Below the pieces are notes generated by a model. The model was not told where the DNA came from. It searched no databases and worked only from the letters and a program-made list of their open reading frames with translations. A stretch of DNA of 64,000 nucleotides, from the NCBI RefSeq assembly GCF_028745735.1, contig NZ_JAQZSM010000005.1, positions 62,001-126,000 on the forward strand. The letters are read 5' to 3'. Made by a program: the position numbers and the translations under genes. Below are positions 1-18,213 of the stretch, piece by piece. The DNA is from Roseinatronobacter alkalisoli (GTDB lineage: Bacteria > Pseudomonadota > Alphaproteobacteria > Rhodobacterales > Rhodobacteraceae). The stretch's first letter is position 1, and each line of letters begins with the position of its first letter.

Positions 1-2
1 GC

Positions 3-1987: not shown

Positions 1988-1996
1988 TGGTGTCAT

Positions 1997-3055
1997 TCAG
2001 ATGTCGGCCTGACGCAGCGCCAGCGTGACCGCGCGCTGCAATGGCACGCGGCTGAATTCGTCGTTTTCAACAATGAACCGCCGGATCAGATTGCGGAATG
2101 TGTCGGTATCCTTTCCCAGCACGGCCAGAACTTTCTGAGATGCTTCGAAGGCCAGCGGGTGACCGTCAGTGATCAACTGCTTGCCCGCATCGGTCAGACG
2201 CAGAAGCCTGCGGCGACGATCATGGGGATGGGCATCGCGCATAATGAAGCCCCTGCGCACCAGTTCTGTCACCAGTGTCGCTGTGGTCGAACCATCCAGC
2301 GCCAGCCAGCGCGCCACGCTGATCTGTTCGACCGGCTGGCCCTTGTCGACAATCCGCAACACACCATAGCGGCGCGGCGTCAGCCGAAGTGATTTTGTTG
2401 TTTCGATAAAGACGCTTTCCAGCGTCTGATGGGTGCGGCGCAACAGGAACCCGAAGGCGTTATACAGGTTGGCATGTTCGGGGAAATCCCTGGCGAGCGT
2501 GGATTCGGTGCCGAATCTTGTCGTCCCGTCGGGGCGAATCCAGTCGGGGGCATGTGCGGGCACATCATCAATCAGGCGGCGCAGCAGCGCAGCCAGGCAT
2601 TCGCGTTCCGCTTCGGTGAAGAAACCCAGCAGCCTGGCGTTATTGCGCACAGCGTTGTCACGCGCCAGCATGGCACAGGCGCGGCCCGCGCGGGTGGTTA
2701 CGATTTCCTTCCTGCGGGCATCCTGGCTGGATTGTTCCCGACGCACGAAACCATGCTCCACCAGACCGTTCACCACCATTGAAATTGTGGTGCGGTCAAC
2801 GCCGATACGCCGAGCAAGTGTGATCTGATCAATTTGCGGTGTTTCCGAGATTACGACAAGCGATGACATCTGTGTCGGCGTGATTCCCAACTCCCCCAAA
2901 TCCTCCATGAAGGAGGACACAGCGATCTGGTTCGCCCGACGGATCAGGAAACCGGGGCGGTCGTAAAAGCTCGACAATTCTTCGATCATCGCAAGGTCAT
3001 TGCCGTCGATATCCGGGCGTGTCTCCGTAAACCCGTCAGTAGACATTTCTTTCAT
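1997..3055 (-). CDS. Tandem MarR-family transcriptional regulator (two MarR domains in one chain)
   Basis: A 352-residue protein, about twice the usual MarR length, with two complete winged-helix units. Domain 1 spans about residues 25-165, with recognition helix DRTTISMVVNGL at 87-98 and wing SSQDARRKEI at 109-118. Domain 2 spans about 190-330, with DGSTTATLVTEL at 254-265 and wing HPHDRRRRLL at 276-285. MarR proteins normally act as dimers on palindromes and are released by aromatic ligands; this chain may be a covalent pseudo-dimer. It lies between the importer ATPases and the divergent catabolic operon, so it is the likely local regulator. The ATG at 3046 is an alternative start. Palindromes stand directly upstream. 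Confidence 0.88.
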   Translation of the reverse strand: MKEMSTDGFTETRPDIDGNDLAMIEELSSFYDRPGFLIRRANQIAVSSFMEDLGELGITPTQMSSLVVISETPQIDQITLARRIGVDRTTISMVVNGLVEHGFVRREQSSQDARRKEIVTTRAGRACAMLARDNAVRNNARLLGFFTEAERECLAALLRRLIDDVPAHAPDWIRPDGTTRFGTESTLARDFPEHANLYNAFGFLLRRTHQTLESVFIETTKSLRLTPRRYGVLRIVDKGQPVEQISVARWLALDGSTTATLVTELVRRGFIMRDAHPHDRRRRLLRLTDAGKQLITDGHPLAFEASQKVLAVLGKDTDTFRNLIRRFIVENDEFSRVPLQRAVTLALRQADI

Positions 3056-3060
3056 TTTTT

Positions 3061-3089
3061 TCAGGTATCCTGAACTAATTACCAGTAAT
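3061..3089. promoter_or_regulatory. Candidate MarR operator: two adjacent palindromes upstream of the tandem MarR gene
   Basis: TCAGG-TAT-CCTGA at 3061-3073 and ATTAC-CA-GTAAT at 3078-3089 both sit within 35 bases of the regulator start. The core TTACCAGTAA recurs at 13628-13637, and its right half CAGTAAT at 3292-3298 in the operon promoter. Autoregulation is inferred, not shown. Confidence 0.5.
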
Positions 3090-3274
3090 ATGCGGCAGCA
3101 TCGTTGCGACGCTGATGATCTTGAACACTAGACAGAAAAATGGCCTTCGCGGCAAGTCAAAAGCGCGCAGGTGCGGCATTGTGCCTGTGCGGTGCACCTG
3201 TCGGAGCTGGCGGTGTGGCATGGAAAACGGTGCTTTCCATGTCTGATAGATTGTCGAAAACCTGTCCTGAAAAC
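3090..3274. other. Divergent intergenic stretch without a recognised gene
   Basis: This lies between the MarR gene and the catabolic operon promoter. An inverted repeat CAGGTGC (3168-3174) / GCACCTG (3194-3200) could form a hairpin. Short open frames here have no ribosome site or family resemblance. Nothing else is seen. Confidence 0.4.
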
Positions 3275-3303
3275 TTGACTTTAAAAAACATCAGTAATAT
3301 GAA
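3275..3303 (+). promoter_or_regulatory. Candidate sigma-70 promoter of the catabolic operon with embedded half-operator
   Basis: TTGACT at 3275-3280, 17 bases, then TATGAA at 3298-3303, about 95 bases before the binding-protein start. The half-site CAGTAAT (3292-3298), shared with the MarR-gene palindrome, overlaps the -10 region. This position suits repression by the tandem MarR protein. Confidence 0.5.
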
Positions 3304-3396
3304 CAATTATGCAAAACGCCGGGTGATCCATCTTATCATCCGGGCGGGCCGCCGCGTGGAGAGGTGCCGCGCAGGGCCATTGTCAGGGAGGGCGAA

Positions 3397-4926
3397 ATGA
3401 AATTCACGAAAGCCGCCGTTGCGGCGCTGATTGTTATGTCCATGACGGGACCGGCATTGGCGCGAAGTGACAGTATCAATTCGCCATTCGTGGTTGCGAT
3501 CAACCACGAGCCGGACACACTGGACCCGTCGATTTCGATCAACACGGTCCTTAGTCGCCCGACGCTTGAAAACATCATCGAGCCCATCGTGGCGCTGGAT
3601 GCCGAGGGTAATCTTGTGCCGGGCGTTGCGGATTTTTCCTATTCCGATGACGGGACGGTGCTGACCTTCACCATCCGGGACGGCGTGACCTTTCACAACG
3701 GAATGCCCCTGACGGCGGATGATCTGATCTTCAGCCATGAACGCATGGCCGAACGTTCGCCGATCTATCAGTCGCGCTTGCGCAATTTCGACCGGGTTGA
3801 AAAGCTGGATGAACGCACCGTGCAATTCGTGTTCACATCGGCTGATGTGACCTATCTGCCACCGCGCAACCTGTCGGTGCTGTCAAAGGCCTATTACGAT
3901 GAAGTGGGCGAGGCGGAATTCGTGGCCAACCCTGTTGGCACGGGGCCTTACACATTGGTCAGCTACACACCCGGCCAGTCGATGGAGATGCAGGCCTTTG
4001 AGGGGTATCATGGTGGTGCCCCCGAGGTGAAGAACCTGCGCTTCGTGTTTGTTCATGAGGACAGCACCCGCGTTGCCATGCTGCGCACGGGCGAAGCCGA
4101 CCTGATACTGAACGTACCCTTCACTGAACGCCATGCGCTGGAACGGGACGGCTTCCAGATCGAGGAAGTCGCGGTCACGCCGACCGTGTCGGTGCAGTTC
4201 ACCATGAACAACCCCGATGTGCCATGGCATGACGTGCGCGTGCGTCGCGCGGTGGCGCATGCAATCGATGCTGACAGCATCGTGGATGGGCTGTTTGAAG
4301 GTGTGCCAAAACGCCACGTCGCCTTCGGCCCGAACGAGATCGGGTTTGACCCCGAACTGGAACATTACGGCTATGACCCGGAGCGCGCAAAAGAGCTTCT
4401 GGCCGAAGCCGGGTATCCTGACGGGTTCGACATGCCGCTGATCTGGTGGCGTGGTGAAAATGCGGGTATTCGCGAAACCGCAGAGGTCGTGTCGATCTAT
4501 CTGCAACAGGTCGGTATCCGGGCCAATGTATCCAGCCTTGATGTGCCGGATTTCGTAGGCAAGATCCGCGCCGCCAAGGGCGAGGGGTCGAGGGAGGCAT
4601 GGGTCGGGATCACGCCGACACCGCTGGCTGAATATTTCGACCCGACCATCGCGCTGGCCTTCACCTTTTGGTCGCAATCGCCTTTTGCTCAGTGGCAGAA
4701 CGACGAATTTGACGCATTGGTGGCACAAGCGGTGCAGACCGTAGACCCCGACACACGCGCGCCGCTGGTAGTTGAGGCCACGCGCATTCTGCACGCGGAT
4801 GTGCCGCAGATACCGCTGTGGAACAATGTGTCCGTCTACGCCATGAAGCCGGGCATTTCCTACACACCTGCACCACGTCATCTTGTGCGTTCTACCATTG
4901 CGGATGTGACGTTGAGTGCCGAATGA
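3397..4926 (+). CDS. Peptide-type ABC transporter substrate-binding protein (SBP_bac_5 family)
   Basis: Periplasmic solute receptor, 509 aa. A Sec signal peptide (MKFTKAAVAALIVM...) ends near residue 22 at ALA. The mature part is a DppA/OppA-class fold with the family pattern INHEPDTLDPS, then DGVTFHNGMPLTADDL and VGTGPYTL. The start at 3397 follows GGGAGGGCGAA and gives a clean signal peptide, unlike an in-frame ATG at 3364. It is the first gene of the 3397-13566 operon and overlaps the next open frame by ATGA. Family 5 receptors bind peptides, nickel, sugars and diverse organics. Context suggests an aromatic dimer as ligand, but this is inference. Confidence 0.9.
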   Translation: MKFTKAAVAALIVMSMTGPALARSDSINSPFVVAINHEPDTLDPSISINTVLSRPTLENIIEPIVALDAEGNLVPGVADFSYSDDGTVLTFTIRDGVTFHNGMPLTADDLIFSHERMAERSPIYQSRLRNFDRVEKLDERTVQFVFTSADVTYLPPRNLSVLSKAYYDEVGEAEFVANPVGTGPYTLVSYTPGQSMEMQAFEGYHGGAPEVKNLRFVFVHEDSTRVAMLRTGEADLILNVPFTERHALERDGFQIEEVAVTPTVSVQFTMNNPDVPWHDVRVRRAVAHAIDADSIVDGLFEGVPKRHVAFGPNEIGFDPELEHYGYDPERAKELLAEAGYPDGFDMPLIWWRGENAGIRETAEVVSIYLQQVGIRANVSSLDVPDFVGKIRAAKGEGSREAWVGITPTPLAEYFDPTIALAFTFWSQSPFAQWQNDEFDALVAQAVQTVDPDTRAPLVVEATRILHADVPQIPLWNNVSVYAMKPGISYTPAPRHLVRSTIADVTLSAE

Positions 4927-4979
4927 TCACCGTATCCGGGCGGAATTCCGACCCGGATACAACGGCGGAGTCCCGGAAA

Positions 4980-5438
4980 ATGCAGGAACCGGCACTGAAA
5001 TTGCTGTTCGAGGCCAGCGGTCAGGTCAGCCCGCCCATGGTGATCGGACAGGTCAGGGGGTCGCGTCGGCAGGTCATTCCGATAGAACCTGACGGCCCGT
5101 TCGAGGGCGAGCGTATCCGCGGGCGCATGGTTTCGGGCTTTGACTGGCAATGGGTGCGCCCGGATGGCGTGACAGCGGTAGAGGCCACCTATCTGCTGGA
5201 AACCGATGACGGGGTGCTGGTCGAATGCCGCAACACTGGCATCCGGCACGGCCCGCCAGAGGTTATGGCCCGTATGGGGCGCGGCGAACTGGTTGATCCG
5301 TCGGAATATTATTTTCGCGCGACCCCGGTCTTTACCGCGCCCGAGGGTAAGTATGACTGGCTGAACCGCTCGCTTTTTCTTTCGACAGGCGCGCGTTACC
5401 CGGACGGGGTGCGCCTTCGGTTTTATGAGATCACATGA
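4980..5438 (+). CDS. DUF3237 protein, candidate PhcF/PhcG-like phenylcoumaran decarboxylase
   Basis: Small soluble protein of the DUF3237 (UPF0311) family, 152 aa from this ATG. Family positions include DWQWVRPDGV, LLETDDGVLVECRNTG, YYFRATPVFTAPEG and WLNRSLFL. From memory of published work, the DUF3237 proteins PhcF and PhcG of Sphingobium SYK-6 decarboxylate the phenylcoumaran acid DCA-CC to a stilbene, each acting on one enantiomer. The next gene here encodes a stilbene-cleaving oxygenase, which fits that reaction order. The start at 4980 follows GGAG and matches family length. The ATG at 4923, overlapping the upstream stop, is an alternative that adds 19 residues. A second DUF3237 gene follows at 8583. 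Confidence 0.82.
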   Translation: MQEPALKLLFEASGQVSPPMVIGQVRGSRRQVIPIEPDGPFEGERIRGRMVSGFDWQWVRPDGVTAVEATYLLETDDGVLVECRNTGIRHGPPEVMARMGRGELVDPSEYYFRATPVFTAPEGKYDWLNRSLFLSTGARYPDGVRLRFYEIT

Positions 5439-5473
5439 CGCCTGGGCGGCGTCCCGAAATGACGAGGCAGATT

Positions 5474-6946
5474 ATGCAACCGTTTCCCGACCACCCGAGT
5501 TTTCAGGGCTTCAACAAACCCTCGCGCGTTGAGGCTGACATAAGGGATCTGGAGGTCATCGGAGAGGTGCCCTCAGACCTGGATGGCGTGTTCTTTCGCG
5601 TCGCGCCGGATGCGCAGTTTCCGCCCAAGCTGGGCACTGACATCCCGTTCAACGGCGATGGCATGGTGTCGGCGTTCCGGTTCAGAAACGGGCGGGTTGA
5701 TTTCAAGCAGCGCTATGTCCGCACGGACAAGTTCAGACTGGAACGCGACGCCGGAAAGGCCCTGTTCGGGGCCTATCGCAACCCGCTGGACGACGACGAA
5801 AGCGTGAAAGGCGAATACCGGGGCACGGCCAACACCAATGTCGTGGTCCAGAACAAGAAGCTCTGGGCGCTGAAAGAAGACAGCCCGCCGGTGTTGATGG
5901 ACCCCTGGACGCTGGAAACCGAAGGGTACAGCGATCTTGACGGCCAGATGACCAGTCAGACCTTCACCGCGCACCCCAAGTTTGACCCGAATACCGGTGA
6001 TATGTGTGCCTTTGGTTATGCCGCCAAGGGCCTGATCACCAAGGACATGGCCTATTACGAGATCAGCCCCGACAACAAGATCAAGCACGAAGTCTGGTTC
6101 GAACTGCCCTATTACTGCATGATGCATGATTTCGGCCTGACAGAGGATTACGCCTGTTTCCATGTCGTGCCGATCGTCGGTTCATGGGAACGGCTGGAAG
6201 AGCGCAAACCGCATTTCGGGTTCGACACCACCAAAGAGGTTTATCTGGGCATTTTGCCGCGCCGGGGCGATGCAAAGGATATTCGCTGGTTCAAGGCCCC
6301 CAACTGTTTCGCAAGCCATGTCATGAATGCCTTCAACGATGGCGAGATGGTGTATTTCGACGTGCCCATGGCCAGAAATAACGGCTTTCCGTTCTTCCCT
6401 GATGTCCACGGTGCGCCTTTTAACCGCGCGGAGGCCGCAGCAGTCATGACCCGCTGGGCGGTGAACATGAACGACAAGTCGGATAACTTTCATTCAATGA
6501 CCCGGCTTTCGGATTTCGTGGGTGAATTTCCACGGATTGATGACCGCTATGCCGCTATGCCCTATCGGCACGGCTTCATGCTGGCGCAGGATCTTGATCG
6601 TCCACTGGAATTGCCCAATGGGCGCTCCATGTCCGGGCTGATGCCCAATCTGCTGGGCCATATGGACCATGCCACGGGCAAGACGAAGCAGTATTTCACC
6701 GGCACGACATCAACCTTGCAGGAACCGGCCTTCATTCCGCGCCCCGGTTCCGTCAGCGAAGGCGACGGTTATCTGGTCGCGGTGGAGAATGTGCTGGCAG
6801 AGCACCGCTCGGACCTTGTGCTGTTTGATGCGATGCGCATTGACGAAGGGCCGATTGCGCGGATGCCGTTGGAATTGCGTCTGCGCGGCGGGTTGCATGG
6901 CAACTGGGTGCCTGCGTCAATGCTGCCGGAAAACCCGGCCGCATGA
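5474..6946 (+). CDS. Carotenoid oxygenase family dioxygenase, lignostilbene dioxygenase-like
   Basis: Non-haem iron dioxygenase that would cleave the central double bond of a 4-hydroxystilbene to two aromatic aldehydes. The four iron-binding histidines are visible as H167 (TAHPKFD), H218 (MMHDFG), H282 (ASHVMNA) and H475 (GLHGNW) in the 490-residue form. F59, Y101 and K134, which I recall as the residues contacting the phenol hydroxyl in LsdA, fall at the same numbers here. The start at 5474 follows GAGG with six-base spacing; ATGs at 5435 (overlapping the upstream stop) and 5459 are alternatives. It sits between two DUF3237 genes and overlaps the GMC oxidoreductase by ATGA. The family is certain; the stilbene substrate is likely. 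Confidence 0.9.
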   Translation: MQPFPDHPSFQGFNKPSRVEADIRDLEVIGEVPSDLDGVFFRVAPDAQFPPKLGTDIPFNGDGMVSAFRFRNGRVDFKQRYVRTDKFRLERDAGKALFGAYRNPLDDDESVKGEYRGTANTNVVVQNKKLWALKEDSPPVLMDPWTLETEGYSDLDGQMTSQTFTAHPKFDPNTGDMCAFGYAAKGLITKDMAYYEISPDNKIKHEVWFELPYYCMMHDFGLTEDYACFHVVPIVGSWERLEERKPHFGFDTTKEVYLGILPRRGDAKDIRWFKAPNCFASHVMNAFNDGEMVYFDVPMARNNGFPFFPDVHGAPFNRAEAAAVMTRWAVNMNDKSDNFHSMTRLSDFVGEFPRIDDRYAAMPYRHGFMLAQDLDRPLELPNGRSMSGLMPNLLGHMDHATGKTKQYFTGTTSTLQEPAFIPRPGSVSEGDGYLVAVENVLAEHRSDLVLFDAMRIDEGPIARMPLELRLRGGLHGNWVPASMLPENPAA

Positions 6947-8586
6947 ACAGGGGCTACGATCATATCGTTGTTGGTGCGGGGTCGTCAGGCTGCGTGCTGG
7001 CCGCGCGCCTGTCCGAAGACCCCGCCGCCCGTGTATTGCTGATCGAAGCGGGCGGGTCCGAAAAACGCCCCAGTGTGGCAATGCCGCTGGCATGGTTCAA
7101 GGCGATGAACGACCCTTCGCTAAGCTGGGGTTATGCAACTGAACCCGAACCCCATGCCGATAACCGGGTCATCCCGGTGCCGCGGGGCCGGGTTGTGGGG
7201 GGGTGTTCGTCGATCAACGGCATGATGTATTCGCGCGGTCATGCCCGTGATTACGATCTTTGGGCACAAAAGGGGCTGACTGGCTGGTCTTTTGACGAGG
7301 TGCTTCCCTATTTCATCCGGTCGGAAGATAACTGGCGCGGGGCATCACGCCATCACGGGGCAGGGGGGCCGCTGACGGTCGCACGGCATCAGACAGATGA
7401 CATGGTCTATCCCGCCCTTGCCCGCGCGGCGCAGGAACTGGGATATCCCGTGATCGAGGATTTTCACGGCGACCAGCAAGAAGGGTTCTCGACGCCTGAT
7501 TTCACCGTCCACAAAGGGCGTCGCGGGTCAACGGCTGCGCGGTTCCTGCGCCCTGCGCTGTCACGCCCGAACCTTGAGCTGATGTCGGGGGCGCTGGTGC
7601 ATCGCGTGCTGGTCGAAAACGGGCGCGCCGTGGGCGTGGAACTATCGCGCGGGGGCGGCGGCAGGACCGAAGTAATCCGCGCTTCGGCCGAAGTGATCCT
7701 GTCCGCAGGGGCGTATGGATCGCCGCAGATTCTTATGCTGTCGGGAATTGGCCCTGCGGATGAGCTGCGCGCGGTCGGTGTCGAACCCTTGCATGATCTG
7801 CCGGGCGTGGGGCGTAATCTGCAAGACCATGCAAGTGTCGCGCATTTCTATGATGCAGCCGGGAATTTCACCTTTGACCGCGAATTGCGGCTGGACCGGC
7901 TGGCGCGTTCGGTCATCCGGTGGCAACTGACCGGGACCGGTCCTGCTGCGGGATTACCGGTCGGGATACAGGGGTTCATCCGCAGCCGCGACGGGCTTGA
8001 CCGCCCGGATCTGCAAACGCTGATCAGCCCGGTTGCGATGAATAATGACGTGTGGTTTCCGGGGTTGCGCCGGTCGGTCGGATCGCGGTTTTCCGTGGCC
8101 AACGTGCTGCTTCACCCCGAAAGCCGGGGTTGGGTGCGGCTGGCCTCAAACGATCCGGCGGCGAAGCCGCGCATCCGCCTGAACCTGCTGGACGCTGAAG
8201 CCGACCGCCTGGCGTTCCGCCGCTTTGTTGCTCTGACGCGCGACTTCTTCGCGACAAAGGCCGGGGCATCATTGGTTAAAGGCGCGGTGCTGCCCCCCGA
8301 TGCCCTGACCAAAGCCGACGCAATTGACGGCTATGTGCGCGCGGCTGTGCGCACCGCGATGCACCCGACCTCTACCTGTGCCATGGGCACGGGGGATGAT
8401 GCGGTGCTGGACGCGGACCTGCGGGTGCGCGGGATTGATGCCTTGCGTGTCGTGGATTGTTCGTCAATGCCGGATATACCGGGCGGCAACACGCAGGCCC
8501 CCGCCATCATGCTGGCCGAGAAGGCCGCCGATCTGATCATGGGCCGTCCCGCGCCCGCCGCCCGTCATCAAGAGGAGGTCGCATGA
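6943..8586 (+). CDS. GMC-family FAD-dependent alcohol oxidoreductase
   Basis: A 547-residue flavoprotein of the glucose-methanol-choline family, oxidising a primary alcohol to an aldehyde. The N-terminal dinucleotide motif is VVGAGSSG near residues 9-16. The second GMC signature is GAYGSPQILMLSGIGP, and the active-site pair is H474 (HPTSTC) and N516 (GGNTQAP). Length and motifs match the choline-dehydrogenase-like subgroup. In Sphingobium SYK-6, GMC enzymes PhcC and PhcD oxidise the side-chain alcohol of the phenylcoumaran DCA, so a similar role is proposed. It overlaps the genes on both sides by ATGA. The exact substrate cannot be read from sequence. Confidence 0.92.
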   Translation: MNRGYDHIVVGAGSSGCVLAARLSEDPAARVLLIEAGGSEKRPSVAMPLAWFKAMNDPSLSWGYATEPEPHADNRVIPVPRGRVVGGCSSINGMMYSRGHARDYDLWAQKGLTGWSFDEVLPYFIRSEDNWRGASRHHGAGGPLTVARHQTDDMVYPALARAAQELGYPVIEDFHGDQQEGFSTPDFTVHKGRRGSTAARFLRPALSRPNLELMSGALVHRVLVENGRAVGVELSRGGGGRTEVIRASAEVILSAGAYGSPQILMLSGIGPADELRAVGVEPLHDLPGVGRNLQDHASVAHFYDAAGNFTFDRELRLDRLARSVIRWQLTGTGPAAGLPVGIQGFIRSRDGLDRPDLQTLISPVAMNNDVWFPGLRRSVGSRFSVANVLLHPESRGWVRLASNDPAAKPRIRLNLLDAEADRLAFRRFVALTRDFFATKAGASLVKGAVLPPDALTKADAIDGYVRAAVRTAMHPTSTCAMGTGDDAVLDADLRVRGIDALRVVDCSSMPDIPGGNTQAPAIMLAEKAADLIMGRPAPAARHQEEVA

Positions 8587-9086
8587 CAACCCCCGATCCG
8601 CTGGCACTTATGCATGAACATGCTTTCGACATCCGCATCAATTTCGACAAACGCTGGAGTACCGGACCAATCTATGGTGGGGCGCAGCTGGGTTATACGT
8701 CGGTGGGTGTCGGGTCCATGGTTGAAGGACCGCTGCTGAACGGGCAGCTTGTCGATTATTCTGGGGCTGACTGGCCGGTGGTGCGCGCGGATGGTGTGGT
8801 GGAACTGAACGCCCATTACATGATCCGGGCGGATGATGGCGCGCTGATCTATATCCGCAATCTGGGATATGTTCACCGGCCCTTGCGCACGCAGGGGCAG
8901 GGGCCGGACGATCCGCCCGATGTACCCGCCTATTTCCGCTGCACCCCCTATTTCAAGGCCCCGGAGGACGGCCCCCATGCATGGCTGAACCGCACAGTGA
9001 TTGTGGGCGTGGCCGTGCGCAAACCCCATGTGACCCCGGATGATCCGCCGGACCATTCGCTTTTTCGCTATTACGCCATCCGCTGA
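8583..9086 (+). CDS. Second DUF3237 protein, candidate partner PhcF/PhcG-like decarboxylase
   Basis: A 167-residue DUF3237 protein, clearly divergent from the copy at 4980 but sharing the pattern DW-(PV)-VR-x-DGV, RADDGALIYIRNLG, YFRCTPYFKAPE and AWLNRTVI. The start follows the strong ribosome site AAGAGGAGG, and the ATG overlaps the GMC stop. Two different DUF3237 genes in one operon recall the PhcF/PhcG pair, whose members each handle one enantiomer of a racemic lignin dimer. Other roles are possible because most of the family is uncharacterised. Twelve bases separate it from the next aldehyde dehydrogenase. Confidence 0.82.
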   Translation: MTTPDPLALMHEHAFDIRINFDKRWSTGPIYGGAQLGYTSVGVGSMVEGPLLNGQLVDYSGADWPVVRADGVVELNAHYMIRADDGALIYIRNLGYVHRPLRTQGQGPDDPPDVPAYFRCTPYFKAPEDGPHAWLNRTVIVGVAVRKPHVTPDDPPDHSLFRYYAIR

Positions 9087-9098
9087 GGGAAACCTGAT

Positions 9099-10601
9099 AT
9101 GAACCAGATGTTCGACCCTGCCCGCCCAGATGCGCTGTGCGCTGAACTGGCTGCCGCCCCCCGCAAATTGCTGATCGACGGTGCGTTCCACGACGCAGAG
9201 AAAGGTCAGGTGCTTGACGTGATCGACCCTGCCACGGGCCGGAAATTCGCCGAGGCCACTGCCGGGGGCGCGGCGGATATTGACGCAGCTGTCATGGCGG
9301 CCCGTCGCGCGTTCGACGATGGTCGCTGGACCGGGCTGCCACCCGCGCGGCGTCAGGATTTGCTGCTGAAACTGGCTGATCTGATCGCGCGCGATGCTGA
9401 AGAACTGGCGCTGCTTGAAACTATGGATAACGGCATGCCCTTCATGATGGCGCGCATGGGCGGGGCCATGGGCGCTGTTGGTATGCTGCGCTACTTCGCG
9501 GGCTGGGCCACCAAGGTAAGTGGCGAAACCATCACCCCTTCATGGCCCGGTGAATGGCTGGGCTATACGCGGCGCGAACCGGTGGGCGTGGTCGCCGCGA
9601 TCACCCCGTGGAATTTTCCACTGGCAATGGAAGTCGGCAAACTGTCGGCAGCGCTGGCTGCAGGCTGCACTGTGGTCCTGAAACCGGCTGAACAGACGCC
9701 CCTGTCCGCAGTGAAACTGGGCGAGTTGATCTGCGAAGCAGGCTTTCCCGATGGTGTGGTCAATATTGTCACCGGTACAGGTGCGGAAGCTGGCGCGCCG
9801 CTGGTTACCCATCCCGGTATCGACAAGATTTCCTTCACCGGATCGACCGTGGTGGGCCAACATATTCTGCGCGAAAGTGCGGGCACCATGAAGCGGGTGA
9901 CACTGGAACTGGGCGGCAAGTCGCCCACCTTCATTTTCGCGGATGCCGATCTTGGTCGCGCCATCCCGGCGGCAGCGCAAGGGATATTCGGCAATGCCGG
10001 ACAGGTCTGCGCGGCGGGATCGCGGCTGTTTGTGCATGAAAGCGTCTTTGATCAGGTGATGGAGGGGATCACCGAACGCGCAAAAACCCTGAAAATCGGC
10101 GCAGGTCTGGAACCGGGAACCGAGATGGGCCCGCTGGTCAGTGCCGTGCAGCGCGACCGGGTGATGGGCTATATAGACGCGGGGCGCAATGCGGGCGTAA
10201 GCCTGCTGACCGGTGGTGGCACATTGGGCGAGGGTGGATATTTCGTCGAACCCACAGTGCTGGTTGAACCGGGTGCGCACTTGTCGGTTGTCCGTGAAGA
10301 AATCTTTGGCCCGGTGCTTTGTGCCATGCGCTTTGGCGACGATGACCTTGACGCGCTGGCCGCGCGCGGCAACGATACGCAATACGGTCTGTCTTCGGCC
10401 ATCTGGACGCAAGACATCACCGCCGCCCATAAACTGGCCAATCGGCTGCGCGCGGGAACTGTGCGCATCAACGGTTCCGGCCCGCCCGATCCCGCATTGC
10501 CGCTGGGCGGCTATAAGGCATCTGGCTTCGGGCGCGAAAACGGGCGCGCGGGGCTGGAAATCTTCACTGAACTCAAGACGGTCACCGTCTCGCTCAACTG
10601 A
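9099..10601 (+). CDS. NAD(P)-dependent aldehyde dehydrogenase (first of three)
   Basis: A 500-residue ALDH superfamily enzyme oxidising an aldehyde to its acid with NAD(P)+. The cofactor region has PWNFPLAM and GSTVVGQ; the general base is E270 in LELGGK and the nucleophile C304 in GQVCAAGSR. It resembles the phenylacetaldehyde/betaine-aldehyde branch. Within the operon it could oxidise the aldehyde made by the GMC enzyme or one of the two aldehydes from stilbene cleavage. Three ALDH genes in a row match a pathway with several distinct aromatic aldehydes, but assignment of each to a substrate is not possible from sequence. Confidence 0.92.
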   Translation: MNQMFDPARPDALCAELAAAPRKLLIDGAFHDAEKGQVLDVIDPATGRKFAEATAGGAADIDAAVMAARRAFDDGRWTGLPPARRQDLLLKLADLIARDAEELALLETMDNGMPFMMARMGGAMGAVGMLRYFAGWATKVSGETITPSWPGEWLGYTRREPVGVVAAITPWNFPLAMEVGKLSAALAAGCTVVLKPAEQTPLSAVKLGELICEAGFPDGVVNIVTGTGAEAGAPLVTHPGIDKISFTGSTVVGQHILRESAGTMKRVTLELGGKSPTFIFADADLGRAIPAAAQGIFGNAGQVCAAGSRLFVHESVFDQVMEGITERAKTLKIGAGLEPGTEMGPLVSAVQRDRVMGYIDAGRNAGVSLLTGGGTLGEGGYFVEPTVLVEPGAHLSVVREEIFGPVLCAMRFGDDDLDALAARGNDTQYGLSSAIWTQDITAAHKLANRLRAGTVRINGSGPPDPALPLGGYKASGFGRENGRAGLEIFTELKTVTVSLN

Positions 10602-10617
10602 CGCCATGGAGGGCATC

Positions 10618-12069
10618 ATGAACACCACGATGAGAGAGGCCGACACCTATCCGGTCCTGAAACTGCATATTGACGGCGAATGGATCAAGGCGGGCGCCCG
10701 CCGGACCTTCGATGTGCTGAACCCCGCGACCGGGGCCGTGCTGGCACATCTGCCGCTGGTCGATGCCAGTGATCTGGACAGGGCACTGGATGCGGCTGAC
10801 CGCGGGTTCAGGCTATGGCGCAAATCCACGCCAGAGGAACGCGCGGCGGTTCTGAACGGTGCGGCGCGACGGCTGCGCGAGCGTGCTGATACGATCGCGC
10901 GCAATGCGACGCTGGAAGAAGGCAAAACCTTCGCTGAAACCCGGCTGGAAGTGATGGTCACTGCCAACCTGTTTGAATTCTACGCGGGCGAAGCCAAGCG
11001 TACCTACGGCCGCGTTCTGGTGCGACCCGAAGGCCAGCGTTCCATTGTTGTCAAGGAACCTGTGGGGCCGGTCGCGGCCTTTGCGCCGTGGAATTTTCCG
11101 ATCGCGAACCCCGGCCGCAAACTGGGAGCGCCGATTGCTGCGGGCTGCTCGGTTATCCTGAAACCCGCCGAGGAAGCGCCAGCTTCGGCCATGGCGGTGG
11201 TGGAGACGTTGGTGGATTCCGGCCTGCCCGCCGGTGTGTGCCAATTGGTCTTTGGTGTGCCCGACGAAGTGTCGCGCCATCTGCTGGCCTCGAAAGTCCT
11301 GCGCAAGGTCAGTTTTACTGGCTCTACGGTGGTAGGCACCCACCTGATGAAGCTGGCCGCCGACAATGCATTGCGCACGACGATGGAACTTGGCGGCCAT
11401 GCGCCGGTTGTAGTGTTTGATGACTGTGATTTCGACCGGACAATCAACATGCTGACAACAGCCAAAATCCGCAACAGCGGGCAGGTTTGCGTGTCGCCCA
11501 CGCGGTTCTACATTCATGAAAACATTCATGACCGGTTTGTTGCGGCAATCAGCGAACGGCTGTCGCAGGTCAAGGTCGGGAACGGGCTGAACCCCGATGT
11601 GCAGATGGGGCCGATGGCCAATGCGCGCCGCCCCGAAGCGATTGAGGGGCTGTTGCAGGACGCGGTTTCAAAAGGGGCCGAAATCCGCACAGGGGGTGAG
11701 CGTATCGGCAATGAGGGGTTCTTCTTTCAGCCCACTGTGCTGGCCAATATGTCGAATGACATGCGGATCATGAATGAAGAACCTTTTGGCCCCGTCGTGT
11801 CCATACTGCCGTTCCGTGACTTTGACGAAGTTGTTGCGCAGGCCAACAGGCTGCCCTTCGGACTGGCCGCATATGCGTTTACTGAAAACGGGCGGCTGGC
11901 CAACCGAATCGGCGCAGCTTTGGAAAGCGGCATGGTCGGGATAAATGCAGTGGTCATGGCCGCGCCCGACAGCCCGTTCCAGGGCGTCAAGCATTCCGGC
12001 CACGGGGCCGAGGATGGGCCCGAAGGGGTTGAGGCGTGCCTCGTCTCGAAGGTCATACATCAACTTTGA
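10618..12069 (+). CDS. NAD(P)-dependent aldehyde dehydrogenase, succinate-semialdehyde-dehydrogenase-like (second of three)
   Basis: A 483-residue ALDH with general base E257 (MELGGH) and nucleophile C291 (GQVCVSPTR). Wording such as ATLEEGKTFAET, GPVAAFAPWNFPIANPGRKLG and the NAVVMAAPDSPFQGVKHSG tail places it in the GabD-like branch, which also contains lignin-aldehyde enzymes. The start at 10618 follows GGAGGG; an in-frame ATG at 10606 lies on that ribosome site and is unlikely. It is 16 bases behind the first ALDH. The real substrate may be an aromatic aldehyde rather than succinate semialdehyde. Confidence 0.9.
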   Translation: MNTTMREADTYPVLKLHIDGEWIKAGARRTFDVLNPATGAVLAHLPLVDASDLDRALDAADRGFRLWRKSTPEERAAVLNGAARRLRERADTIARNATLEEGKTFAETRLEVMVTANLFEFYAGEAKRTYGRVLVRPEGQRSIVVKEPVGPVAAFAPWNFPIANPGRKLGAPIAAGCSVILKPAEEAPASAMAVVETLVDSGLPAGVCQLVFGVPDEVSRHLLASKVLRKVSFTGSTVVGTHLMKLAADNALRTTMELGGHAPVVVFDDCDFDRTINMLTTAKIRNSGQVCVSPTRFYIHENIHDRFVAAISERLSQVKVGNGLNPDVQMGPMANARRPEAIEGLLQDAVSKGAEIRTGGERIGNEGFFFQPTVLANMSNDMRIMNEEPFGPVVSILPFRDFDEVVAQANRLPFGLAAYAFTENGRLANRIGAALESGMVGINAVVMAAPDSPFQGVKHSGHGAEDGPEGVEACLVSKVIHQL

Positions 12070-12117
12070 GTGTTTCATCAGAAGGTCGGGGATCGCCCGG
12101 CCCAAGGAGGACGAAAA

Positions 12118-13566
12118 ATGAAGATCGACATGCTGATTGACGGCGCACCCGTCAGTGCGAAAAGCGGCAAGACCTATGAACGTATCGACCCGTTCACTGG
12201 CGAGGTTGCGACAGTCGCGGCGGCAGCGACCGCTGATGATGTGCCGGGGATCGTTGCATCCGCGCAGGAAGCGTTTGAAGGCTGGTCCCGGACCGGGCCG
12301 AACGCGCGCCGCAAGATCCTGAACAAGGCCGCTGATATTCTTGAAAGCAAGGTGGATGAATTCACCAGACTGATCATCGCGGAAACCGGTGCAACTGGGC
12401 CTTGGGCCGGGTTCAACGTGGCGTTTGCGGCGGGGGTCTTGCGCGAAGCGGCGTCGATGACTACCCAGATCACGGGCGAGATCATTCCGTCCGACAAGGC
12501 CGGTTCCATGGCGATGGGCCAGCGCAAGCCGCTGGGCGTCTGTCTTGGCATGGCGCCATGGAACGCGCCGGTCATCCTGGGGGTGCGCGCGATTGCGATG
12601 CCGCTGGCATGCGGCAACTCGGTCATTCTGAAGGCGTCAGAGGCATGTCCAGGCACGCACCGGCTGATCGGGGATGTACTGGCGGAAGCCGGGTTGCCCA
12701 AAGGTGTGCTGAATGTGGTGACCAATGCCCCCGAAGATGCCGCCGATCTGGTGGCAGCGCTGATCAGCCATGATGCGGTGAAGCATGTGAACTTCACCGG
12801 GTCTACGGCTGTCGGGCGGATCATCGGCCGGCTTGCGGGTGAGAACCTGAAGCCCGTGCTGCTGGAACTGGGCGGCAAGGCGCCGCTGGTTGTTCTGGAT
12901 GATGCCGATATTGACGGTGCGGTGAATGCCGCCGTGTTCGGGGCGTTCATGAATCAGGGCCAGATCTGCATGTCCACCGAACGCATTATCGTGGACGAAA
13001 AAATTGCCGATGATTTCGTTGCGAAACTGTCTGCGCGGGCCGCGTCGCTGCCTGCGGGCGATCCGCGTGGCAAGGTGGCGCTTGGCGCGCTGATATCCGA
13101 AGCCGCCGCCGAAAAGATGGACTCGCTGGTGGATGACGCTGTGTCGAAAGGCGCGAAGCTGACCGCAGGCGGTGCGCGCAAGGGCGCTGTAGTGCCCGCC
13201 GGTGTACTTGACGGGGTCACGCCCCAGATGCGTATCTACCGTGAGGAGAGCTTCGGCCCGGTCAAGTCGGTCATCCGCGTGAATGGCGATGACGAAGCGG
13301 TGCGCGTGGCCAATGACACGGAATACGGCCTGTCAGCGGCGGTTCATGGCGGGGATCTGAAGCGTGCGATGGCCGTGGCTGACCGGATCAAATCCGGTAT
13401 CTGCCATATCAACGGGCCCACTGTATCGGACGAGGCGCAGATGCCCTTTGGCGGCGTCAAGGCGTCGGGGCATGGCCGGTTCGGCGGCAAGGCCGGGATC
13501 GACGCCTTTACGGATTGGCGCTGGCTTACCATCGAAGACCCGCACAAACAGCATTACCCGTTCTAA
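12118..13566 (+). CDS. Aromatic aldehyde dehydrogenase, salicylaldehyde/vanillin-dehydrogenase-like (third of three)
   Basis: A 482-residue ALDH with general base E250 (LLELGGK) and nucleophile C284 in NQGQICMSTER. That pattern and APWNAPVILGVRA are typical of the salicylaldehyde, benzaldehyde and vanillin dehydrogenases. An AAGGAGG ribosome site precedes the ATG at 12118. As last gene of the operon it is a good candidate for vanillin oxidation after stilbene cleavage, producing vanillate. A strong stem-loop follows at 13573. The aromatic-aldehyde class is likely; vanillin itself is inference. Confidence 0.9.
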   Translation: MKIDMLIDGAPVSAKSGKTYERIDPFTGEVATVAAAATADDVPGIVASAQEAFEGWSRTGPNARRKILNKAADILESKVDEFTRLIIAETGATGPWAGFNVAFAAGVLREAASMTTQITGEIIPSDKAGSMAMGQRKPLGVCLGMAPWNAPVILGVRAIAMPLACGNSVILKASEACPGTHRLIGDVLAEAGLPKGVLNVVTNAPEDAADLVAALISHDAVKHVNFTGSTAVGRIIGRLAGENLKPVLLELGGKAPLVVLDDADIDGAVNAAVFGAFMNQGQICMSTERIIVDEKIADDFVAKLSARAASLPAGDPRGKVALGALISEAAAEKMDSLVDDAVSKGAKLTAGGARKGAVVPAGVLDGVTPQMRIYREESFGPVKSVIRVNGDDEAVRVANDTEYGLSAAVHGGDLKRAMAVADRIKSGICHINGPTVSDEAQMPFGGVKASGHGRFGGKAGIDAFTDWRWLTIEDPHKQHYPF

Positions 13567-13572
13567 GTCGCA

Positions 13573-13619
13573 GTCAATGCGTGCCGTGTTCATTCGCATT
13601 CACGCGGGCACGCATTGAC
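13573..13619 (+). terminator. Stem-loop after the catabolic operon, probable terminator
   Basis: A perfect 13-base inverted repeat, GTCAATGCGTGCC (13573-13585) and GGCACGCATTGAC (13607-13619), with a 21-base loop. The T-rich TATTGTTTTA follows. It begins seven bases after the last aldehyde dehydrogenase stop. It could also protect the 3' end of the mRNA. Confidence 0.6.
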
Positions 13620-13625
13620 GTATTG

Positions 13626-13639
13626 TTTTACCAGTAAAA
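13626..13639. promoter_or_regulatory. Palindrome TTTTAC-CA-GTAAAA, third copy of the putative MarR site
   Basis: It shares the core TTACCAGTAA with the palindrome upstream of the tandem MarR gene at 3078-3089. It lies directly after the operon terminator and before an unexplained stretch, so it may control a transcript running toward 14050. Confidence 0.4.
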
Positions 13640-14017
13640 GCTCGGAACTGGATATCACTTCCAGGAGACATGCGTTGAGTTGGAGCATAATCGCTTCAAG
13701 CCGAAACCGCGCCCTTGGCGAGTGGCTACTGGCATGAAGGGGGCGCCCATAGGCACGGAATCGATGGCGCAGCCTGCTGCGCCATCAGTGGGCCGTCCCG
13801 CGGCCTGCCGATACCGCCAGCGACAGGCCAAGCCTTGGATGTCGGGGTATTCCGCCTGCATAAAGTGAACTTCTAAAACGTGGGACCGGCAATCCCCAGC
13901 CCACCGCTGGCTTGATCAAAGCGGTAACGTTCCCTTCAGGCCAGAACCGACCCGCGCTTGCGTGGAACCTGATATGGTCGGACGACAAGCGTGATCGATG
14001 GCTGGCTGAAGCCGCCG
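13640..14017 (+). other. Unexplained intergenic stretch between an operator-like palindrome and a strong terminator
   Basis: About 380 bases with no convincing gene on either strand. Open frames of 60-70 codons occur (for example 13680-13868) but lack a clear ribosome site and resemble nothing I know. The arrangement of a palindrome on the left and an intrinsic terminator on the right would suit a small RNA or a degraded gene. Confidence 0.35.
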
Positions 14018-14053
14018 ACCGTCCGGGGCGATGGCGCTGCGGACGGTTTTTTT
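14018..14053 (+). terminator. Strong intrinsic terminator
   Basis: ACCGTCCG (14018-14025) pairs with CGGACGGT (14040-14047) around a 14-base loop and runs into seven T residues at 14047-14053. On the plus strand it would end any transcript from 13626 onward and shields the convergent decarboxylase operon. Confidence 0.8.
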
Positions 14054-14120
14054 GTGGTGAACCTGTAAAGGAAAGGGGGGGGGCGGCAATTCAGGTGCCG
14101 CCCCTGTCAGCTGTGTCAGA

Positions 14121-15188
14121 TCAGATCTTGAAGACCTTGCGCGCGTTGTCTTCGAAAAATGCTTTCTTGATCGCGTCATCTACGTCCATATGATCGAAGA
14201 CGCCAACCTCGCCCTGAACGAACTGCCACGGATAATCCATTGCGTACATCATCCGGTCTTTGCCGATCACGTCCTGCACGTATTTCACCGGCGGCGTCCA
14301 GCCCACACCAGAAGAGGTGTAGTAGAAATTATCGCACAGATAGTCCCATGCCCGACGCTTCAGCGGCTGAACATTCGGGTAGCGCCCGGTTTTTGAGATA
14401 TGTCCGTGCATATAGTCGATTCGGTAGAGCCAGTAGGGCAGCGCCTCGCCGCAATGGCCCAGAACGATGTTAAGTTTGGGGAACCGGTCGAACAGGCCCG
14501 ACACCACAAGCCGCAGCGCATGCAGTCCGGTTTCGCAGGCAAACCCATAGACTGCGGCGTCCAGCCCGCGCGGCAGGAACGGATCGATCATGTCGGCGGG
14601 TGGCGTGTTGGGGTGCAGATAGATCGGCACATCCAGCGCCTCGGCGGCTTCAAACAGGCCCCAGTATTTTTCATCGTCCAGATAAACGCCCATCGTGTGG
14701 GAATTCAGGATACCGCCGCGCAGGCCCAGTTTGGTCACGCCGCGCTCCAGCTCCTTCTCGGCCTGACCAATATCCAGCGGTGAAAATGCGGCAAGGCCGA
14801 CAAAACGGTTGGGATGCGCCGCGATCCCTTCGGCAAGCATGTCATTGGCCATGGTAGCAAGCGCGCTTGCCTGCGCGGGTTCAAACACCTGCACACCGGG
14901 TGATGACAGGGCGAGCACGGCCATGTCTATGCCGCTTTCGTCCATGTCCCGCAGCCGTTCGTCACCCAGCGACTGAATGCGCCGGTTATGGGCGCGCGCC
15001 TTGTCGGTGGTGGATTTGCCGAAAAACCCCCACAGGCTGCGGAACCCCGGGTCGGTTATCGTGCCATCGTCCAGACCCTTGATGTACAGATCCATGATTT
15101 CCGGCGGCAGCCATGCTTCCTCGGCCGCGATCCGCTTATAGGGTGGGTTTTCAACACGCGGGGGCATGGCGGGATAGCGTTCACTCAT
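14121..15188 (-). CDS. Amidohydrolase-family decarboxylase (LigW / gamma-resorcylate decarboxylase / ACMSD-like)
   Basis: A 355-residue metal-dependent decarboxylase of the amidohydrolase superfamily. Expected metal and active-site residues are the EEAW motif at 23-26, which replaces the HxH of ordinary amidohydrolases as in LigW, plus H192 (LHPNTP), H245 (LGHCGE) and D318 (MDYPW). DMDESGIDMAVLALSSPGVQ is typical of hydroxybenzoate decarboxylases. LigW of Sphingobium SYK-6 removes the 5-carboxyl group of 5-carboxyvanillate, a product of phenylcoumaran and biphenyl catabolism. Position opposite the stilbene operon suggests the same job here. Its ATG overlaps the stop of the TRAP permease gene, so the two are coupled. 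Confidence 0.87.
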   Translation of the reverse strand: MSERYPAMPPRVENPPYKRIAAEEAWLPPEIMDLYIKGLDDGTITDPGFRSLWGFFGKSTTDKARAHNRRIQSLGDERLRDMDESGIDMAVLALSSPGVQVFEPAQASALATMANDMLAEGIAAHPNRFVGLAAFSPLDIGQAEKELERGVTKLGLRGGILNSHTMGVYLDDEKYWGLFEAAEALDVPIYLHPNTPPADMIDPFLPRGLDAAVYGFACETGLHALRLVVSGLFDRFPKLNIVLGHCGEALPYWLYRIDYMHGHISKTGRYPNVQPLKRRAWDYLCDNFYYTSSGVGWTPPVKYVQDVIGKDRMMYAMDYPWQFVQGEVGVFDHMDVDDAIKKAFFEDNARKVFKI

Positions 15189-17077
15189 TCAGTGTTTCCT
15201 TCAGGTTTCAGGCGCAGCGCGCCATCGGTGTGCGTGCCTTCACGGCGCGCGATGAAAATAGCCGCGACCACACCCAGGATGGCGATGATCAACGCCGCCG
15301 TGGATGCGGGTGGAATAACGGCAGTCGTGGCCCCTATGGCCAGCGCAAGCACCCCTGCACCCAGCCTTCGCACCCTACCGCCATAGGCGCGGGGATTTGC
15401 CAGAACTTCGGCCAGCAGGAACCCGGCGACGCCCACAGTTGCGACCGATACGGCAATTTCATGCCATGTACCCTGCCAGACCAGTGCGGGGTTCAGGGCA
15501 AAGACGAAGGGCAGCAGATAGGCCGTGATTGCCAGTTTTATGCCGGTCACGCCGGTCTGCCACATGTCCGACCCCGCGATGGACGCAGCCGCATAGCTGG
15601 CAATTGCGACCGGCGGGGTCAGCATTGACAATAGTCCGAAATAGAAAATGAAAAGATGCGCGGACATCTGGGCCACGCCCGCCTGCACCAGCGCAGGCGC
15701 AAGCAGGACGGAAATTACCACATAAACCCCGGTTGTCGGCATTCCCACGCCAAGGATTATCGCAAGCGTGGCTGTTGCCGCCAGCAGCGCAAGCACCCCC
15801 CCCGCGGCGGCGATTTTGCCAAGCGCCAGCGTCAGGGCGAATCCCAGACCGGTGACATTGATGGTGCCGATCACGATACCCGCCACCGCACTGACAAGGA
15901 TCACCGGAATCAGCGTGCGCCCTGATCTGGCAAGAATATCTGCAAAGAACCTCAATGACAGCATTTCACGCGGTGTGCGGATCAGGTTCAGCGCCAGCGC
16001 ACTGATGGCCGAATAAAGCGCGGCCTTGCCGGGGCTGTAGCCCAGCACGAACAGAAACCAGATCAGCACACCAAGGGGTGCTATCAGGGGCCATGCCCCG
16101 GCCAGCGCGCCGCCCACGCGGGGCAGGTTTTCGCGCGGCTCGCCCATGATCCCGTGGGCGGCCGCAAACCGGTCCACCTGACGGTAAAGCAGGTAGTAAT
16201 AGAAGGCTGCGGGCAGGAATGCGGCAACGACTACATCAGCATATCCCACCTGCAGGAATTCGGCGATGACAAAAGCTGTCGCCCCCATCACCGGCGGTGC
16301 GATCTGTCCGCCGTTTGACGCCACGGCCTCGATGGCGGCGGCATGGCGTGACGGGAAGCCTGCGCGTTTCATCATCGGAATTGTGACAACGCCGGTGGAC
16401 ATGACATTGGCGACTGTTGACCCGGACAATGTGCCAAACAATGACGAGGCAAGGATCGCGACCTTCGCGGGGCCGCCGCGCCTGTGCCCCATCAGCGCCA
16501 TGGCCAGCCGCGTCATTGCATCGGACCCGCCAACAGCGGTCAGCACCACACCAAAGACGACGAACCCCAGAATCTGGTTTGCCGCCACATTCAGGACCAG
16601 ACCGGGCACACCGTTGGAGTCGCTATAGATGTACAGCAGGTAACGCGCGGGCCGCAGATATGCGCCTTCAAATATTCCCGGCCCCAGCCAGCCCAGAAAC
16701 CCGTAGGCCATGAAAATCAGCCCGAGCACGGCCAGAACCAGACCGCAGTTGCGCCGCGTCGCCTCCACAGTTCCGGCGATGGCGATCAGCGCAGGCACCC
16801 ATTTTTCCGGCCCGCGGATATGCGCCGTAAGCAGCCAGCCTTCATAGTTCCAGGCCAGCCATAGCCAGCCGGACATCGCCAGAACGCCGAATGCGACATC
16901 CGGCCAGCGCCACAACCCATTGCGCGGGGCGGCAAGGAAACCGGCAAGAACAGCCACGCCAAGCACTGTGGCCAGATATTGCTCGGTGATGACAACCATG
17001 CCCAGACGCGCGGGCAGGTCCAGAATCCACGCGATTCCCAGCACCGGCAACAAGGCGGTGATAATGCGACTGCTCAC
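15185..17077 (-). CDS. TRAP transporter fused small/large permease (DctQM-type, TAXI system)
   Basis: A 630-residue polytopic membrane protein. The N-terminal four-helix DctQ-like part is fused to a DctM-like part, visible in SLFGTLSGSTVANVMSTGVVTIPMMKRAGF, NGGQIAPPVMGATAF and GVGMPTTGVYVVISVLLAPALV. It imports an organic acid using the sodium or proton gradient with the binding protein encoded next to it at 17108. The operon order is binding protein, permease, decarboxylase. The context suggests an aromatic acid such as a carboxylated vanillate, but TAXI substrates are rarely known. Confidence 0.92.
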   Translation of the reverse strand: MSSRIITALLPVLGIAWILDLPARLGMVVITEQYLATVLGVAVLAGFLAAPRNGLWRWPDVAFGVLAMSGWLWLAWNYEGWLLTAHIRGPEKWVPALIAIAGTVEATRRNCGLVLAVLGLIFMAYGFLGWLGPGIFEGAYLRPARYLLYIYSDSNGVPGLVLNVAANQILGFVVFGVVLTAVGGSDAMTRLAMALMGHRRGGPAKVAILASSLFGTLSGSTVANVMSTGVVTIPMMKRAGFPSRHAAAIEAVASNGGQIAPPVMGATAFVIAEFLQVGYADVVVAAFLPAAFYYYLLYRQVDRFAAAHGIMGEPRENLPRVGGALAGAWPLIAPLGVLIWFLFVLGYSPGKAALYSAISALALNLIRTPREMLSLRFFADILARSGRTLIPVILVSAVAGIVIGTINVTGLGFALTLALGKIAAAGGVLALLAATATLAIILGVGMPTTGVYVVISVLLAPALVQAGVAQMSAHLFIFYFGLLSMLTPPVAIASYAAASIAGSDMWQTGVTGIKLAITAYLLPFVFALNPALVWQGTWHEIAVSVATVGVAGFLLAEVLANPRAYGGRVRRLGAGVLALAIGATTAVIPPASTAALIIAILGVVAAIFIARREGTHTDGALRLKPEGNTE

Positions 17078-17107
17078 AATGGTTCCCCCGGTGCTCTGGT
17101 GCCTGAC

Positions 17108-18103: not shown

Positions 18104-18162
18104 GTGATCCTCCCAGACCGGGCGGGTAGGGCCCCGCCGCGATAAAAGGCTACCATTGGTTG

Positions 18163-18177: not shown

Positions 18178-18213
18178 GAATATTAAAAGATTATTTATGC
18201 AGTAAGTATATGA

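Follow-up and report, generated by a model that had tools for sequence, protein, structure and literature searches.

What is a block of genes resembling the beta-5 (phenylcoumaran) lignin-dimer pathway of Sphingobium SYK-6 doing in Roseinatronobacter alkalisoli, a member of the Rhodobacterales? The question arises at the start of a 64,000-nucleotide stretch of its 4.84 Mb genome (contig C76, positions 62001-126000; hereafter the window), where the initial annotation had proposed a compact version of this pathway, with its own importer, outside the sphingomonads. We find that a 17-gene block reaching into the window is likely to be a diverged form of the SYK-6 pathway, spread by horizontal transfer and equipped with an ABC importer. 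The assignment of function rests on homology and gene context. A compact Phc-type version outside the sphingomonads does appear to exist: the block encodes relatives of PhcC, PhcF, LsdD, FerD, LigV and the aldehyde dehydrogenase (ALDH) linked to phcD, plus a PhcD-like GMC oxidase.

Extent and layout of the block

The block runs from an FAD monooxygenase to ALDH3 and is larger than its part inside the window, starting about 7.4 kb before it. With the start codons of the pre-window genes chosen as in Roseinatronobacter sp. S2 (S2 below), its features are, in order (SBP, solute-binding protein; LSD, lignostilbene dioxygenase):

Contig C76, 54560-56161: FAD monooxygenase, an aromatic-ring hydroxylase of the FAD_binding_3 family
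Contig C76, 56472-57992: SBP2
Contig C76, 58052-58549: DUF3237c
Contig C76, 58552-60162: GMC2
Contig C76, 60186-61085 and 61089-62006: two permeases
Window 3-998, plus strand: ABC importer ATPase, DppD type, 93% identical to S2
Window 968-1987, plus strand: ABC importer ATPase, DppF type, 89% identical to S2; start perhaps 995, as in S2
Window 1997-3055, minus strand: tandem MarR-type regulator, divergent from the LSD operon
Window 3274-3303, plus strand: possible operon promoter, CTTGACT...TAATATGAA
Window 3397-4926, plus strand: SBP1, ABC solute-binding protein family 5 (SBP_bac_5)
Window 4980-5438, plus strand: DUF3237a, putative ring-opening decarboxylase (141.5 bits; Pfam cut-off 24)
Window 5435-6946, plus strand: LSD, lignostilbene dioxygenase of the LsdD/NOV1 type; 5474 is a possible start, following the annotation of the S2 relative
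Window 6943-8586, plus strand: GMC1, GMC oxidase, PhcC-type
Window 8583-9086, plus strand: DUF3237b, PhcF-clade putative decarboxylase (95.2 bits)
Window 9099-10601, plus strand: ALDH1, relative of the ALDH beside SYK-6 phcD
Window 10618-12069, plus strand: ALDH2, FerD type (5-formylferulate dehydrogenase)
Window 12118-13566, plus strand: ALDH3, LigV-type vanillin dehydrogenase

A check of profiles and reading frames found every gene named by the initial annotation at its place and in its orientation. Outside its view, before the window, lie the third DUF3237 gene, the second GMC oxidase, the second SBP, the two permeases and the FAD monooxygenase. The importer it had claimed is there as well, as a complete ABC gene set with two binding proteins. 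This importer is flanked by two SBP-DUF3237-GMC groups, the second of which is enlarged with LSD, an extra DUF3237 gene and the three ALDHs; SBP1 and SBP2 are 45% identical, as are GMC1 and GMC2. The eight plus-strand genes from SBP1 to ALDH3 are operon-like, since the gaps between them measure only 53, -4, -4, -4, 12, 16 and 48 bases.

Dioxygenase, dehydrogenases and oxidases

For comparison, the names PhcC, PhcD, PhcF, PhcG, FerD, LigW2 and LsdB were assigned to unannotated SYK-6 DNA by means of gene order together with locus tags from Table 1 of PMC12997858, and the LigV position by interpolation of position; all trees are quick trees. LSD scores 829.9 bits against the NCBIfam lignostilbene dioxygenase equivalog NF053778, over its cut-off of 800, and is 59.3% identical to SYK-6 LsdD by blastp (60% to LSD4/LsdD in the alignment). 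Four catalytic LSD4 residues named in PMC8191317 (Phe-59, Tyr-101, Lys-134 and Ser-283) are kept in the aligned LSD as F72, Y114, K147 and S294. As described in that source, Ser-283 contacts the ferulyl part of DCA-S, the stilbene derived from dehydrodiconiferyl alcohol (DCA), and its alanine variant is little changed in specificity.

Each of the three ALDHs has a SYK-6 partner of its own. ALDH1 is 63.0% identical to the ALDH directly beside phcD, the top of 22 SYK-6 matches, and by blastp ALDH2 is 62.5% identical to FerD (next SYK-6 match 46%) and ALDH3 58.7% to the LigV position (next SYK-6 match 36%). All three pairs are starred (support 95, 100 and 100) in a 42-row tree in which the SYK-6 ALDHs were restricted by a length filter to part of the 22 and in which one artefact row sits on a very long branch. 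Among solved structures, ALDH3 is closest to the vanillin dehydrogenase 9ihb, with salicylaldehyde dehydrogenases next. Among the six SYK-6 GMC proteins, the PhcC position is the top blastp match of GMC1 (51.0%), and the two form a starred group with support 99. GMC2 is 50.8% identical to the PhcD position by blastp, and a wider starred group (98) holds GMC1, PhcC, GMC2, PhcD and a second SYK-6 GMC protein.

The DUF3237 proteins

Genome-wide, DUF3237 was matched three times, always within the block, the third gene beginning about 4 kb before the window; the proteins are 37-46% identical to one another over their aligned parts. The initial annotation had read the two it saw as PhcF and PhcG and named a phylogeny as the check. 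Once run, this was favourable for DUF3237b and went against the assignment for two of the three proteins. In a 69-row tree from which six long rows were taken out (two from SYK-6 at 2935 kb, one from Sagittula and one each from the loci L057, L080 and L021), DUF3237b falls together with the PhcF clade at a Shimodaira-Hasegawa-like approximate likelihood-ratio (SH-aLRT) support of 99.9. In the 75-row tree, which has many long branches, the two stand together with one further long row at support 82. Gene context is consistent with this placement: in Altericroceibacterium indicum, a DUF3237b relative (68%) and a PhcG-type gene (66% to the PhcG position) point away from each other, with LSD and FerD alongside, an arrangement that links the DUF3237b subfamily to the Phc step.

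DUF3237a and DUF3237c, by contrast, are not orthologues of PhcF or PhcG. For DUF3237a the assignment was rejected on blastp, tree and alignment: it is 54.0% identical by blastp to the SYK-6 DUF3237 gene directly adjoining lsdD, and in the 75-row tree it lies inside a 36-row group (support 90) that holds this gene. DUF3237c is 40.0% identical to the same SYK-6 gene and 34.6% to the PhcG position by blastp, and branches separately, joined only by its counterparts from S2 and Pararhodobacter.

Two further observations concern the SYK-6 side of this comparison. The lsdD-adjacent DUF3237 gene of SYK-6 (L100 8969-9481) has relatives in many sphingomonad LSD loci and stands apart from PhcF and PhcG in the tree, making it a possible third decarboxylase. 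As a check on name placement, the protein at the SYK-6 PinX position shares 42.0% identity with the one at PhcG and 36.8% with the one at PhcF; PMC12607616 prints 42% and 38% for PinX of Novosphingobium rhizosphaerae LY.

Conservation and spread

The whole block recurs on a 613 kb plasmid of S2, with 17 of 17 genes in the same order and orientation and protein identities of 84.6-96.5%; the main DNA match to S2 covers window bases 2-13571 at 86.9% and ends just past ALDH3. Pararhodobacter zhoushanensis has 16 of the 17 genes in the same order (60-87%), on a stretch that begins inside SBP2. Recurrence in these two genomes indicates that the gene order is more than chance. Six genes, from a partial LSD to ALDH3, are also present at a contig end of a Maritimibacter metagenome-assembled genome (85-93%).

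Such blocks are rare. Among 390 genomes of the order, an LSD match below 1e-50 was found in three, namely its own and two at 31-32% identity, and the genomes lacking one include four of its own genus. A survey of 385 genomes of the class gave seven LSD matches at 1e-100, its own included, the best of the others at 56%. Rare and closely similar blocks in Roseinatronobacter, Pararhodobacter and Maritimibacter, one of them plasmid-borne, point to horizontal spread.

A separate LigW-TRAP module

The initial annotation had also counted a LigW-like decarboxylase gene facing the operon as part of the cluster. Its module comprises:

Window 14121-15188, minus strand: LigW/LigW2-like decarboxylase (Amidohydro_2), possible last step for 5-carboxyferulate
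Window 15185-17077, minus strand: TRAP fused permease, linked to the LigW-like gene
Window 17108-18103, minus strand: TAXI-family TRAP binding subunit of the LigW module

The protein is 42.5% identical to SYK-6 LigW2 by blastp, and its best solved relatives are the 5-carboxyvanillate decarboxylase 4inf (361.7 bits) and LigW2 4qs5 (359.4 bits). The gene is divergent from the LSD operon and followed by the TRAP transporter, with a LysR gene divergent from both (14121-19110). Its inclusion in the cluster was not borne out: no LigW-like gene lies within 13, 3.4 and 3.4 kb beyond ALDH3 in S2, Pararhodobacter and Maritimibacter, respectively, and membership in the operon is ruled out by this lack of adjacency in the stretches read at the three other cluster-bearing loci. 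S2 has a module of LysR, TAXI, TRAP and LigW-like (82%) genes on the same plasmid, far from the cluster, and the Maritimibacter genome has a LigW-like gene (71%) adjoining a TRAP gene. LigW-like genes accompany TRAP genes also in two genomes (G337 and G378) for which the order survey showed no LSD of this kind; the LigW-like gene is therefore a separate module. At 1e-80 it occurs in 4 of the 390 genomes of the order, its own included, and its presence in all three cluster-bearing genomes or records searched is suggestive. The LigW-TRAP pair may serve to import and decarboxylate an aromatic acid.

Contigs were also scanned with an LSD alignment; of 305 relatives the best 80 were retained, and the scan reached the SYK-6 chromosome. 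Across the 80 LSD loci, 38 have a FerD-like neighbour, 38 a LigW-like one and 33 both; restricted to the 49 loci exceeding 20 kb, these numbers become 31, 28 and 27.

Regulation

Two stretches of the tandem MarR protein match NF053777, the Saro_0803 family, at 154 bits, which lies below the cut-off of 200 and so short of membership. A SYK-6 MarR reading frame beside phcFG matches it at 28% over 317 residues. The regulator would be stilbene-sensing and probably controls the operon. Upstream of SBP1, the CTTGACT...TAATATGAA stretch (TTGACT...TATGAA, by eye) is nearly identical in S2 and partly conserved in Pararhodobacter. A consensus promoter scan reported no promoter at this stretch, and the intergenic sequence yielded no operator resembling the nov1 promoter's GCAATA...TATTGC repeat.

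Comparison with known systems

How does the block compare with what is known? With the Phc pathway of Sphingobium/Parasphingobium SYK-6 it shares relatives of PhcC, PhcF, LsdD, FerD, LigV and the phcD-linked ALDH that group with the SYK-6 proteins in trees or as best matches; a PhcD-like GMC protein is present too, and MarR genes are found near both SYK-6 loci. The SYK-6 genes had been called scattered, which is true of the LigV position, located elsewhere; phcFG-lsdB-phcCD and ferD-ligW2-lsdD, however, form two clusters within about 16 and 10 kb. Compact versions also exist in sphingomonads (L035 and L084), such as that of Novosphingobium sp. CF614 (L035), with DUF3237b, GMC1, LSD, FerD, LigW and ALDH1 types within about 9 kb. 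In contrast to the two loci plus ligV of SYK-6, there is one block here, with three DUF3237 genes (one in the PhcF clade, none in the PhcG clade), an ABC importer with two binding proteins and a conserved FAD monooxygenase. The host has a protocatechuate 3,4-cleavage gene, and the nearest named relatives of the block are Rhodobacterales, not Sphingomonadales.

The PcfL pathway of Novosphingobium aromaticivorans F199 (PcfL, LsdD, FerD, LigW) has the LSD, FerD and LigW steps in common with our system, but uses PcfL, a formaldehyde lyase of the NTF2 family, where GMC and DUF3237 proteins are found here; no NTF2-type PcfL was seen among the cluster proteins scanned, and the genome was not searched for it. 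The pinoresinol pathway of N. rhizosphaerae LY (PinZYXVWU) follows the same logic of oxidase, DUF3237 decarboxylase and LSD, whereas the block has FerD and LigV types, and a scan of the cluster proteins showed no relative of PinZ or PinVW.

The survey in PMC11323797, run at a 50% identity cut-off, reports 82 organisms with the complete PcfL set, of which one lies outside the Sphingomonadales, and 32 with PhcC/PhcD plus PhcF/PhcG. Our three DUF3237 proteins are at most 43% identical to the PhcF and PhcG positions in the alignment, so this cut-off would not score their decarboxylase step, while the LSD, FerD and PhcC relatives would pass. Judging by literature listings, we found no description of such a cluster outside sphingomonads or in connection with diferulate and lignostilbene, and no title on ABC uptake of lignin dimers. 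The kind of pathway is thus known; new, as far as the genes indicate, are the host group, the organisation, the divergent DUF3237 set and the ABC importer.

Proposed pathway

How might these enzymes work together? Following SYK-6 Phc logic, the block would serve uptake and breakdown of beta-5 dimers such as DCA and its oxidised forms, with entry through the ABC importer and its two binding proteins. General dehydrogenases, perhaps including ALDH1 or a coniferyl-alcohol dehydrogenase encoded at 29329-30093 (382.6 bits, over the cut-off of 242 for NF009092), would convert the allylic side chain to the acid (DCA-C). On the ring side, the CH2OH would be oxidised towards DCA-CC by GMC1 (PhcC type) and GMC2 (PhcD-like), with ALDH1 as a possible helper. 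Decarboxylation of the DCA-CC enantiomers and ring opening to DCA-S would then fall to DUF3237b and probably also to DUF3237a or DUF3237c; LSD would cleave DCA-S with O2 into vanillin and 5-formylferulate. Vanillin would be converted to vanillate by ALDH3 (LigV type) and 5-formylferulate to 5-carboxyferulate by ALDH2 (FerD type), after which the separately placed LigW-like enzyme would yield ferulate. The FAD monooxygenase at the start of the block, 85% identical in S2, possibly acts on a salicylate-like product such as 5-carboxyferulate. Vanillate would proceed through a LigM-type demethylase and the protocatechuate 3,4-pathway. The genome holds a LigM relative (56% identity), pcaH for the protocatechuate 3,4-dioxygenase beta subunit (contig C1, over cut-off) and a protein 43% identical to a Variovorax enzyme annotated as feruloyl-CoA synthase.

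Several observations weigh against this pathway. DUF3237b is only 42-43% identical to the PhcF position (41.7% by blastp, 42.9% in the alignment), and none of the three DUF3237 genes of the genome is a PhcG orthologue in the 75-row tree; a clade of PhcG with DUF3237c is not supported, yet the constraint is not rejected (approximately unbiased test, p-AU 0.104). The proteins at the PhcF, PhcG and PinX positions have 35 invariant residues in common; DUF3237b keeps 27 of them and DUF3237a and DUF3237c 25 each, but DUF3237 proteins of Variovorax and Sagittula, which sit in other gene surroundings, also keep 27 and 25; this count does not separate DUF3237 functions and is not used as support. GMC2 pairs with the second SYK-6 GMC protein and not with PhcD (support 88), and by blastp the FAD monooxygenase and SBP1 have no match among the SYK-6 stretches compared. 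The block contains no dedicated allylic alcohol dehydrogenase, and the LigW-like gene is unlinked to the cluster in the relatives. Finally, VanA_C has no match in the genome, which rules out the VanAB route for vanillate.

Alternative substrates

Could the dimers be of another kind? The main substrate might be 8-5 diferulate, in the benzofuran form from grass cell walls, with DUF3237, LSD, FerD and LigV as the core and the GMC oxidases as an accessory entry for alcohols. Going by the names, DCA-CC would be the free acid of 8-5 diferulate. PMC11323797 reports DC-S-C and DC-C made from DFA, a compound derived from ethyl ferulate, and several LSD loci have DUF3237 and FerD genes with no GMC gene within the stretch covered. 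We nevertheless consider diferulate unlikely to come first: two GMC oxidases are conserved in the S2 and Pararhodobacter blocks, so alcohols are probably substrates too. The natural input of the beta-5 dimer pathway may include 8-5 diferulate.

Natural stilbenes of the resveratrol kind as the only substrates, under a Saro_0803-like stilbene sensor, are very improbable. The match of the MarR protein to the Saro_0803 family, though below cut-off, and the response of Saro_0803 to resveratrol reported in PMC10046596 speak for such a role. It would leave the GMC, DUF3237, FerD-type and phcD-type ALDH genes unexplained, although relatives retain all of these together. A pinoresinol-type (beta-beta lignan) pathway, with a PinY-like GMC oxidase, DUF3237 as PinX and LSD as PinU, is hardly credible even with PinX described as a DUF3237 protein and PinU as an LSD relative in PMC12607616, given that LSD is of the LsdD kind, none of the three DUF3237 proteins groups with the SYK-6 PinX position in the 75-row tree, a FerD-type enzyme would have no role for the reported products vanillin and coniferaldehyde, and no PinZ- or PinVW-like reductase or flavocytochrome was seen among the cluster proteins scanned (the genome was not searched).

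The beta-5 dimer pathway can be extended into a bolder proposal, which we regard as unlikely when taken whole. Here, the block would be a plasmid-borne, horizontally shared unit in which the modules SBP2-DUF3237c-GMC2 and SBP1-DUF3237a/b-GMC1 handle different beta-5 enantiomers or oxidation states from uptake to ring opening, with an ABC importer dedicated to a lignin dimer, a new DUF3237 decarboxylase lineage and 8-5 diferulate as a main natural substrate.

Other features of the window and genome

A second group of phenylpropanoid type occupies window positions 25828-35820, with a MobR-like regulator on the minus strand (311 bits, cut-off 999), an ALDH (27644-29245), an alpha/beta hydrolase and a branched-chain-type ABC ATPase in addition to the coniferyl-alcohol dehydrogenase. 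It is in keeping with a region for phenylpropanoid degradation and could account for the first oxidation of DCA. At positions 35879-43873, a gene for allophanate hydrolase lies next to a dipeptide-type ABC transporter, and a divergent LysR gene accompanies them. A PcaQ-like LysR reading frame at 53317-54522 (213.8 bits, cut-off 303.8) has an extra N-terminal stretch also matching a LysR helix-turn-helix, which may reflect a fusion or a wrong start. Apart from pcaH on C1, the genome has a second protocatechuate-dioxygenase-like gene pair (C35:25339-26598) that falls below the family cut-off.

Implications

In this block, a bacterium from outside the customary lignin degraders carries relatives of nearly all the enzymes known to turn a common two-ring fragment of lignin into monomers of the vanillate and ferulate types. 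If the function of the block is confirmed, lignin conversion would gain new decarboxylases and a gene set that can be transferred together with its importer, and beta-5 dimer catabolism would extend to the Rhodobacterales, including an isolate from an alkaline spring.

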